Of a DNA stretch of 40,114 nt, positions 2,068-5,007 are shown one piece after another. Made by a program: the position numbers and the translations under genes. The number at the start of each line of letters is the position of its first letter. The first letter of the stretch is position 1. The notes beneath the pieces are model-generated. The model ran no database searches. It saw only the letters and a list, made by a program, of their open reading frames with translations, and was not told the DNA's origin. Source of the DNA: Actinomycetes bacterium (GTDB taxonomy: Bacteria > Actinomycetota > Actinomycetes > S36-B12 > UBA5976); assembly GCA_021814565.1 (NCBI GenBank), contig JAKAIC010000008.1, positions 1 through 40,114 of the forward strand. The letters run 5' to 3'.

Positions 2068-3225
2068 TCAGGCGATGGACCAGGTGGAGCCATCGGGCGT
2101 ATCCGTGATGGTGACACGGAGATCGCGGAGCCGGGTACGTATCTCGTCGGCCTCGGCCCAGAAGCCGTTCTGGCGAGCAGCACTTCGGGCAGCCAACAGA
2201 GCCTCGATATAGGGACCCACGATCTCAGCCAGGTCAAGGCTGGGATTGGCCGCCAGTTGTCCCAGATGGATGATGACGGCGTGCATGGCCGCCCGCTTCG
2301 CGGGGTCACGCTCCACATCGTCAAGCGCCAGCAGCGCGTCGACCGCGTCCTCGACCCGTCCCTCGTCCAGCATCGAGTGCAGGGTCAGGTCGTCCCAGAC
2401 CACGGGTGTCGACGTCTCCGAGGTGGTGAGTCGGGTACCTGCGCGCTCCGCGACTTCCTGCACCGAGACCTCGCCGCCGGTGGGTACCACCCACATGAGG
2501 CCGTTCATGCGCACCGTCATTCCGCCGCGACCGAAGACGTGCACCCGTTGCGAATCCAGGTCGAAGCGCACGCCGGTGTGTTCGTCGATTCCGAGTACGA
2601 AGCAGTCCTCGGGGAGCATGGCCTCCAGCGCTGAGAGGCGACGCTCGCCCACGTAGCAGAATCGAGTGTCGTGGGTGCCACCCTCGGCATTGTCGAAGTG
2701 CGGGATGACGGCAGCACGCAATCCCGTGGCATGCCCGAGGAAATCGAGACCGGGCAGCCAATGCGGATCCTCGCCGACCTTGTAGATCTCGTACACCGGC
2801 ATGGTGAAGGCCCCGGCCGTGAGTGCGGCAGCCGATGCGAACACCACGTGGCCACGCGCCAGCACCGCCTCGAAGGCGCTGGCGGCACCGGTCTCGCGCC
2901 ATACGCGCAGGGCATAGGTGGGGCTGCCGGGGCCGGCGAAGACCCAACGTGCGCGGCGCAGCGCCTCGACGGTGGTGCCCACCACCAGCGCTGCAGCGTC
3001 GGGACTGCGCAGGCTGGCCACGTCAATGCGGCGACCCACTGCATAGGCGAAGTAGCGCAACACGCGTTCGCTGAGTTCGTCGGCGTTCTCCTGGAAGCCG
3101 TAGGGGCTGTCCAGAGTGAGGGCCGCTCCCGGTGACGAGGGCACATCGGCAAGCAGGCGCTGGTGCGCGGTGACCATGGTGGGGCTGGTCTCGCCGGACC
3201 CCATCAGTACCAGACTTCGTGCCAC
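2068..3225 (-). CDS. Peptidase S51 / cyanophycinase-like protein with CysRS-like C-terminal tail
   Basis: About 385 residues. Residues ~1-250 resemble the S51 peptidase/cyanophycinase-like group with a class-I glutamine-amidotransferase fold: the opening SLVLMGSGETSP, the GPGSP turn at ~99, and a probable serine nucleophile elbow FASAAALTAG at ~129-138 (Ser ~131). Substrate is unknown; no cyanophycin synthetase is in view. The last ~35 residues (ARQNGFWAEADEIRTRL..., then DTPDGSTW) look like the C-terminal end of cysteinyl-tRNA synthetase. I prefer the GTG at 3225 because it gives the usual N-terminus and has CATGAT 6 nt upstream (leaderless spacing); a GTG at 3243 would add six residues. There is no clear Shine-Dalgarno for either. 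Confidence 0.75.
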   Translation of the reverse strand: MARSLVLMGSGETSPTMVTAHQRLLADVPSSPGAALTLDSPYGFQENADELSERVLRYFAYAVGRRIDVASLRSPDAAALVVGTTVEALRRARWVFAGPGSPTYALRVWRETGAASAFEAVLARGHVVFASAAALTAGAFTMPVYEIYKVGEDPHWLPGLDFLGHATGLRAAVIPHFDNAEGGTHDTRFCYVGERRLSALEAMLPEDCFVLGIDEHTGVRFDLDSQRVHVFGRGGMTVRMNGLMWVVPTGGEVSVQEVAERAGTRLTTSETSTPVVWDDLTLHSMLDEGRVEDAVDALLALDDVERDPAKRAAMHAVIIHLGQLAANPSLDLAEIVGPYIEALLAARSAARQNGFWAEADEIRTRLRDLRVTITDTPDGSTWSIA

Positions 3226-3237: not shown

Positions 3238-3310
3238 GCACACGGTGCTGAACGGCGTCCCTGCCAGGCAGAAGGCAACAGGCCACCTGAGCAGTCATTG
3301 CCGATCCGCG

Positions 3311-4036
3311 TCAGATGCTCCGTCGCTTCAAGGTGAGCGATCCGATGACGACGCACCCGACGACGAAGGCCCAGATGACACCGAATTTCCACCACACCTC
3401 GGAGGACAGCGTGGCCTGTGCCGACACGCCATTGAGTACATCCACGGCGTAGGAGAGTGGCAGCAGATTGCTGATGGGCTGCAGGATGTGATTGAGGCTG
3501 TCGCGTGGGACGAAGAGCCCGCACAGGAAGAGCTGGGGGATGATGACCGCCGGCAGGAACTGCACGGCCTGGAACTCCGTCTGCGCCAGAGCGCTGAGTG
3601 CCAGGCCCAGGGCGGTACCGAGCTGGGCGACGGACATGGCCACCACGATGGCCATCCACTTGGGGCCGGCGAACTGCAGGTTTAGCCACCACACCGCGAC
3701 GCCGACAGCGATGAGCGATTGCAGCAGCGAGAGCACCGCAAAGGCCAGTTGGTAACCGATGATGAAATCGACTTTGCGCATGGGCATGGAGAGCAGGCGT
3801 TCCAGGGTGCCGGATTGACGTTCTCGGAGCGTGGCGATGCTCGTCACCAGAAACATGGTGATGAAGGGGAAGATGCCAAGCATGGAGAGACCGATGCGGT
3901 CGAAGACCGGCTGGGGGAAGATCCATGACACCAGCGCCATCAGGAAGACGGGCACGATCATGAGCAGGGCCATGGTGCGTCGATCGTGACGCAGTTGCTT
4001 GAGCACCCTTTGGGCAGTGGAGGTGATGCGATTCAT
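3311..4036 (-). CDS. ABC-2 type transporter permease
   Basis: 241-residue integral membrane protein, the membrane half of a DrrAB-like exporter. About six hydrophobic segments are visible, the first at ~22-40 (ALLMIVPVFLMALVSWIF) and the last at ~217-233. The cytoplasmic loop TLRERQSGTLERLLSMPMRK (~69-88) is the classic ABC-2 signature; the ending SLTLKRRSI is also typical. Its ATG overlaps the stop of the ATPase gene (ATGA, 4033-4036), so the two are translationally coupled and should form one complex. Substrate cannot be told; drug, lipid or polysaccharide export are all possible. The 85 nt before the next gene (3226-3310) hold nothing I recognise. Confidence 0.88.
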   Translation of the reverse strand: MNRITSTAQRVLKQLRHDRRTMALLMIVPVFLMALVSWIFPQPVFDRIGLSMLGIFPFITMFLVTSIATLRERQSGTLERLLSMPMRKVDFIIGYQLAFAVLSLLQSLIAVGVAVWWLNLQFAGPKWMAIVVAMSVAQLGTALGLALSALAQTEFQAVQFLPAVIIPQLFLCGLFVPRDSLNHILQPISNLLPLSYAVDVLNGVSAQATLSSEVWWKFGVIWAFVVGCVVIGSLTLKRRSI

Positions 4037-4743
4037 GCTGCAGCTCCGTCAATCAGCGCGAGGAACGCCTGCTCGACGTTGTTGGTGCCGGTGCGGGTGA
4101 GCAGAGACGGGATCTCCTCATTGGCCAGCAGTTTCCCGTCGCGGAGGAGGAGCAGGGTGTCGCAGCGCTCGGCTTCATCCATGACGTGGCTGGAGACCAG
4201 CACGGTGTTGCCGGCGTCCGCGAGCCGGCGGAACAGAGCCCACAGGTCGCGTCGCAGCACCGGGTCCAGGCCCACGGTGGGTTCGTCGAGCACTAGCACG
4301 GGTGGCTGGCCCAGCAATGCGATGGCCAGCGAGCAGCGTGAGCGTTCGCCGCCGGACAGCGAGGCAACGCGCGCGGTGGCCCGGTGGTTGAGGTCGACGC
4401 TGTCGATGGTGAAGGGGATTCGGGAGTTGTCGAGGCCGAGCACCCGTGCGAAGTACTCGAGGTTCTCGAGCACGGTGAGGTCACCGTAGACCGAGGGCGC
4501 TTGCGTGACATAGCCAACGCGGTGACGAAGCGAGGGACTGCCCGCTGGCTCGCCAAGGACCATAACCTCGCCCGAGAGGATGCGCTGCACGCCGACGATG
4601 GAGCGAATGAGCGTGGTCTTGCCGCCGCCGCTGGGGCCTACCAATCCGGTGAGCCGACCGGCATCGATGGCCACGGAGAAATCGGAAAGGACCACATTGT
4701 GACCGCGTCGTACGGTCAGGTTGCGGACACTGATGGACGCCAT
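4033..4743 (-). CDS. ABC transporter ATP-binding protein
   Basis: 236-residue ATPase that powers the permease encoded just downstream. Walker A GPSGGGKTT at residues 36-44, Q-loop in GYVTQAP, signature LSGGERSR, Walker B VLVLDEPT followed by GLDP, and the switch histidine in VSSH are all intact. The C-terminus stops soon after the core domain. The ATG at 4743 has the purine-rich ribosome binding site GAAGGGAAG just upstream; the frame is open further upstream but with no credible start. With its permease partner it forms a two-gene exporter of the DrrA/NatA kind with unknown substrate. Confidence 0.9.
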   Translation of the reverse strand: MASISVRNLTVRRGHNVVLSDFSVAIDAGRLTGLVGPSGGGKTTLIRSIVGVQRILSGEVMVLGEPAGSPSLRHRVGYVTQAPSVYGDLTVLENLEYFARVLGLDNSRIPFTIDSVDLNHRATARVASLSGGERSRCSLAIALLGQPPVLVLDEPTVGLDPVLRRDLWALFRRLADAGNTVLVSSHVMDEAERCDTLLLLRDGKLLANEEIPSLLTRTGTNNVEQAFLALIDGAAA

Positions 4744-4770
4744 CGGGTCTTCCCTTCGCAGGCTGCGTCG

Positions 4771-4776
4771 AGCGTA
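4771..4776 (-). promoter_or_regulatory. Candidate -10 box (TACGCT) for the ABC exporter genes
   Basis: TACGCT on the minus strand; transcription would start about 7 nt on, giving a leader of about 20 nt that includes the GAAGGGAAG ribosome binding site. The rest of the 264-nt divergent gap up to 5007 is GC-rich, with a short tandem GCTGGCCCC repeat at 4848-4865. Confidence 0.35.
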
Positions 4777-5007
4777 GCAACGCGGACTGGCGGCGGCGGG
4801 GAATGATGCCCGAGCAAGGCCCGTCGAATCCCGGACCGCCGACCCTCGCTGGCCCCGCTGGCCCCTCTGGCCAGGTGGTGAAGGACGGGCCTCCGTCGCG
4901 CGCAGCCGTCCCCATCGCCGCGGGCTGCCGGCGGCGGGCGTCGCTGCTGCACATGAAGGGAACGTCGCAAAGGTGCGCGCGATCAGGGCACCTGCTTCAC
5001 TGCGCCC

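Follow-up and report, generated by a model that had tools for sequence, protein, structure and literature searches.

Anticodon-binding domains are usually regarded as parts of synthetases. In E. coli cysteinyl-tRNA synthetase (CysRS), R427, D436 and W432 contact G34 of tRNA(Cys), and R423 does so through water (PMC12684709, in the excerpt available). Among the S51 hydrolases, PepE has a catalytic triad of Ser120, His157 and Glu192, and MccG, which belongs to clade V, uses Asp (PMC9239234, in the excerpt available). The window analyzed here (the whole stretch of 40,114 nucleotides) contains a gene whose product combines these two kinds of protein, with an S51-like hydrolase domain followed by the anticodon-binding module of CysRS (CysS_C). 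Both halves are of known kinds, and the S51-CysS_C architecture is new relative to the open PMC papers searched, in which no description of the family was found.

The gene starts with GTG at position 3225 and ends with a stop codon at 2068–2070, giving 385 codons on the minus strand (Table 1); starting instead from a GTG at 3243 would lengthen the product by six residues. The source genome comprises 1,995,058 bases in 156 contigs and returns the query as a 100% self match; the nearest relative found is encoded in an Actinomycetes MAG and is 63% identical. Upstream on the same strand lie an ABC-2 permease gene (3311–4036), across a gap of 85 bases, and an ABC ATPase gene (about 4033–4797). A DUF1697 gene converges head-on with the S51-CysS_C gene and ends at 2061.

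Table 1. Features of the S51-CysS_C gene, in window positions
Feature	Positions	Strand	Basis or remark
Whole gene: S51-like hydrolase and CysRS anticodon-binding module	2068..3225	minus	385 aa, GTG start
S51-like (PepE/cyanophycinase fold) catalytic domain, residues 1–254	2464..3225	minus	AF2 model; VIA Z 24.5 to 6nqc
Ser131, predicted nucleophile	2833..2835	minus	Invariant, 96/96; aligns with Ser of 6nqc CSAGA
His176, predicted catalytic histidine	2698..2700	minus	Invariant, 96/96; aligns with PHF of 6nqc
Start of interdomain link, residues 255–273	2407..2463	minus	Runs into the lowest-confidence stretch; 271–275 below pLDDT 50
Reduced helical bundle, residues 274–338	2212..2406	minus	Collinear with CysRS bundle by hhalign
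CysS_C anticodon-binding domain, residues 339–385	2071..2211	minus	PF23493, 36.5 bits; 2.2 A over 56 residues to 1u0b_B 406–461
Stretch with R347, R351, W356 and D360 (equivalents of G34-contact residues)	2146..2187	minus	Alignment; contacts from PMC12684709 (excerpt); conservation
D375, equivalent of E. coli D451	2101..2103	minus	Invariant; also kept in YqeB

Domain architecture

The full-length AF2 model (pLDDT 90.2, pTM 0.80) matched 20 PDB chains at E<=0.001, every one of them S51 among the matches listed. The closest folds by VIA are 6nqc, the cyanophycinase-like exopeptidase of an acI-B1 actinobacterium (2.9 A over 231 residues), pseudo-CphB 7uqv (Z 24.3), cyanophycinase 3en0 (Z 23.2) and 1fy2 (Z 20.4). 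A preliminary description of the gene had called it an S51-type peptidase, a label that stands for the fold and falls short for the family profile: PF03575 does not match the query at E<=10 and matches 40 of 96 aligned relatives at E<=1 (best 3.1e-5). The protein is thus better described as S51-like by fold than filed as a member of the S51 family. It shares the fold and the positions of the Ser and His with PepE, cyanophycinase, MccG and 6nqc, whereas the nucleophile motif reads ASAAA in the query and CSAGA in 6nqc. The position expected to hold the triad acid, 215 (2581–2583 of the window), varies among the 96 relatives (63 E, 18 S and 15 G) although Ser131 and His176 are invariant; candidates for the third triad residue are D214 (94/96) and E146 (96/96). 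The family differs from the S51 enzymes in this variable residue, in its invariant signatures YExYKxG, NxxG and HxT, and in its additional tail of an RNA-binding type.

The end of the protein had drawn attention because it resembles that of CysRS, and the resemblance proved far beyond chance. The pattern occupies residues 355–366 (FWAEADEIRTRL) and 375–382 (DTPDGSTW), within a match of residues 340–382 to PF23493, the CysRS anticodon-binding domain, well above its curated cut-off of 23 bits (E=5.1e-9). The tail is found in all 96 aligned relatives (PF23493, E<=1), and a chance motif is ruled out by these values. With the query itself, phmmer recovered the CysRS structures 1li5 (E 0.0014) and 3tqo (E 0.0033), and a profile of the 96 sequences matched solved CysRS structures with E values between 1.7e-11 and 6.2e-5. 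Structure prediction agreed: the C-terminal 122 residues modeled alone reached pLDDT 85.1, and E. coli CysRS (1u0b_B) was the top match in both structural searches with the predicted tail module. By VIA, the predicted tail fits that chain with Z 8.3 and 32% identity, and no other chain reached Z 8 with this model. Neither outcome that would have spoken against the preliminary description, a missing profile match to the C-terminal domain of CysRS or another predicted fold, was observed, and its view of the tail is supported.

A degenerate CysRS is ruled out: the query scores 22.7 bits against the full-length NCBIfam cysS model TIGR00435 (cut-off 340 bits), by a match confined to residues 339–383, and it contains neither HIGH nor KMSKS. 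Since the same genome encodes a separate CysRS with HVGH and KMSKS, the S51-CysS_C protein is not the synthetase. With the CysRS C-terminal region (1u0b, 1li5; PF23493) it shares a homologous tail, a collinear bundle and the residues that contact G34, and it differs from CysRS in lacking the synthetase catalytic domain together with its HIGH and KMSKS motifs. In a tree of tails (154 kept of 159 input), S51, GT2 and CysRS classes are intermixed, the CysS_C domain being too short for a tree to settle the origin of the tail.

The region between the two domains, which had been left unassigned (residues ~250–345), now aligns with the helical bundle of CysRS. Family residues 264–385 aligned by hhalign with 26 actinobacterial CysRS at a probability of 99.3%, in register through the bundle. 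The middle alone has a probability of 28%; at the collinear place it scores 30.5, whereas 30 column shuffles gave no more than 15.4 and a reversed profile gave 11.0. In the search of Chloroflexota, the family profile also matched frames of CysRS length from positions ~258–296 to 412–415, beyond the tail. Bundle and tail superposed together give a poor 14.4 A, and when the tail module was searched by structure, the only hits to its helical part were generic helical proteins. The relation of the bundle to CysRS thus rests on the sequence profiles, by which the middle is apparently a remnant of the CysRS helical bundle, in register. In the f60 group and in divergent Chloroflexota members the bundle is shortened or replaced and the tail is retained.

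Residues that contact G34 and other carriers of the domain

By the phmmer alignment (offset 76), R423, R427, W432 and D436 of E. coli CysRS correspond to R347, R351, W356 and D360 of the query. R347, R351, D360, R363 and D375 are invariant in the 96 relatives, all of which have an aromatic residue at position 356 (67 W, 21 F and 8 Y). These residues are also kept in all 12 divergent and all three shortened (f60) members, and likewise in 36 CysRS, where the position of R351 holds R in 33 and K in three.

The domain is found in other settings as well, and the listing of tail carriers proposed in the preliminary description turned up CysRS, GT2 fusions and YqeB besides the S51-like family. Among 51 CysS_C proteins from 119 genomes of the actinobacterial phylum, CysRS accounts for 36, fusions to a GT2 glycosyltransferase for 14 and the window gene for one. 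The sample combines the best-scoring loci with 20 chosen by hand, many for an odd frame length, so that the proportions are those of a selected sample and no census. In the GT2 fusions, CysS_C lies at the N-terminus of the glycosyltransferase (Pfam was run on three, one from Chloroflexota). Two more were found in Chloroflexota, and the 16 loci in Actinomycetota and Chloroflexota are L128, L138, L169, L170, L172–L181, L204 and L212. All 16 keep the G34-contact residues; in one of them, K replaces R363. Six of the 16 were found to have an alpha/beta hydrolase upstream.

YqeB consists of a PH-like domain (PF23494) and CysS_C, the latter matched at 69.5 bits. As in the query, the domain is a C-terminal tail on a protein that is not a synthetase; in contrast to the query, the partner domain is another one and the G34-contact residues are mostly lost. 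Among nine YqeB tails, the R427 position holds R in one, the aromatic residue at 432 and D436 are found in none (short insertions there in YqeB make the placing of columns 432 and 436 dependent on the alignment), and the R423 and D451 positions are kept in all nine. One homologue found with YqeB as query, on Bacillus badius plasmid pPM400 (L248, 190–876), carries the label '50S ribosomal protein L29', probably in error.

Since YqeB carries the same Pfam domain with the G34 set mostly lost, this set is not merely a requirement of the fold, and a view of the tail as pure fold is weakened. Its conservation in the S51-CysS_C family suggests selection for anticodon recognition beyond the fold alone. 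The loss of the set in the repurposed YqeB and its retention here form the main, indirect, argument for RNA binding, by which the S51-CysS_C protein probably binds RNA.

Distribution and genomic neighborhood

The S51-CysS_C family has a wide distribution across Actinomycetota and Chloroflexota. Within the order, 49 of 99 genomes match at E<=1e-5, some of them through the tail of CysRS only. Within the phylum, matches at E<=1e-20 occur in 26 of 296 genomes, and 25 of the 26 matches have the tail. In Chloroflexota, 153 of 201 genomes match at E<=1e-10, most of them by sequences that resemble CysRS itself in frame length and in the part matched. The hydrolase part was matched in all 30 Chloroflexota loci examined, with the tail in 26 and no detectable tail in four. 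Thus, the fusion has been kept over a wide divergence. The four tail-less hydrolase homologues are L231, L233, L235 and L239; in two of these the match is interrupted by an in-frame stop. Another locus, L168, holds an incomplete copy that lacks the tail and contains an in-frame TGA; it is likely a pseudogene.

Four plasmid records contain a relative of the family, and the two annotated copies inspected are called 'hypothetical protein'. The search of phages gave no family match, and 11 pattern matches in viral contigs yielded zero confirmed relatives; a phage origin was rejected for this absence of confirmed phage or viral relatives. A defense system was rejected as well, as PADLOC matched none of the 96 members.

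In 26 of 79 loci from Chloroflexota and Actinomycetota, an alpha/beta hydrolase gene on the same strand lies directly or almost directly against the start of the S51-CysS_C gene; among loci with at least 900 bases upstream, the count is 24 of 70. For instance, one such gene (L010, 3973–4980) abuts or overlaps the S51-CysS_C start. The window gene has no adjoining alpha/beta hydrolase. Eleven of the 79 loci (including L032, 2915–3205, and L040, 2925–3233) have a small ClpS-like ORF, recognized by eye, at a distance of ~0.9 to 4 kb upstream.

The preliminary description had also raised a link to tRNA or to cysteine handling. For cysteine, the neighborhood gives no support: the neighbor clusters read revealed no recurrent cysS or cysteine gene next to the S51-CysS_C gene, and no tRNA(Cys) gene lies beside it in the window or in the 58 loci scanned (those numbered before L061). 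The predicted link to tRNA has gained strength because the G34-contact residues are retained. In nine of the 58 scanned loci (L027, L032, L037, L040, L042, L046, L047, L048 and L054), a tRNA-Glu (TTC) gene lies close downstream, an adjacency that probably reflects lineage synteny.

A possible tRNA(Cys)-directed hydrolase and its alternatives

We propose, with a probability of roughly 40%, that the protein is a tRNA(Cys)-directed serine hydrolase, in which an S51-fold domain has taken the place of the catalytic half of CysRS and the anticodon-binding module has been kept. The tail would recognize G34 and so bind tRNA(Cys), the bundle would space the hydrolase along the tRNA, and Ser131, activated by His176, would hydrolyze an acyl bond on tRNA(Cys). 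The most likely target would be the ester of an aminoacyl- or peptidyl-tRNA(Cys) that is wrongly charged or in surplus, making the protein a deacylase in trans; the choice of acyl-tRNA as substrate is tentative. The proposed way of working, with no homology claimed, resembles that of the trans-editing deacylases YbaK, ProXp and AlaX. These derive from synthetase editing domains, whereas the query hydrolase derives from an S51-like hydrolase.

Several points speak against a tRNA(Cys) hydrolase: the triad acid that is not fixed, the four tail-less members of 30, the absence of a recurring tRNA(Cys) or cysteine neighbor in the loci examined, and the poor superposition of bundle and tail together. 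Because some members have a shortened bundle or none, a fixed geometry from anticodon to CCA is less likely, and because the GT2 fusions keep the G34 set as well, the module may serve a purpose that has nothing to do with ester hydrolysis.

An ordinary S51-type exopeptidase or small-molecule hydrolase, with CysS_C reused as a folding or protein-contact domain and no tRNA involved, is a less likely account, and the best of the rivals. It would fit the nearest folds (PepE, cyanophycinase and 6nqc) and the homologues that lack the tail, and YqeB, with CysS_C after a PH-like domain and without the G34 residues, demonstrates that the domain can be repurposed. What sets the S51-CysS_C family apart from YqeB, and counts against this account, is that R347, R351, the aromatic residue at 356 and D360 are kept in every one of the 96 relatives.

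It is improbable that the protein is a detoxifying hydrolase similar to MccG, acting against aminoacyl-nucleotide inhibitors of synthetases and placed near tRNA(Cys) or CysRS by its tail. MccG enzymes of the S51 group do cleave an isoaspartyl-nucleotide that inhibits AspRS (PMC9239234, in the excerpt available), but an anticodon reader would be superfluous for a small-molecule substrate, and no antibiotic gene cluster was evident in the neighbor clusters examined. It is also quite improbable that the protein works on the anticodon loop itself, for instance by stripping off or changing an acyl or amide group of a modified base, with the GT2 fusions as glycosylating sister enzymes. Such an activity would agree with the same G34 residues in all 16 GT2 fusions and with hydrolases in which only a short link joins domain and tail; it is pure conjecture, and we know of no such modification of the anticodon loop of tRNA(Cys) in Actinomycetota or Chloroflexota. 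An artefact (chance motif, misassembly or frameshift) is refuted by the same architecture in relatives of 37–63% identity from dozens of independent genomes, including named isolates of Ferrithrix and Dactylosporangium.

If the tRNA(Cys)-directed hydrolase is real, it would be a case of one half of a synthetase being reused, and a tRNA-specific enzyme outside the synthetases, with G34-reading residues kept across two phyla. The prediction is specific as to which tRNA, which base and which residues. The family might then, as a possibility we hold with some doubt, represent the first known class of serine hydrolases guided by a tRNA anticodon, reading G34 of tRNA(Cys) and deacylating it or transferring an acyl group, and CysS_C would be a mobile tRNA(Cys)-reading module placed on unrelated enzymes (the S51-like hydrolase and GT2). 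Such an enzyme could point to a form of quality control, or to tRNA(Cys) being put to a second use.
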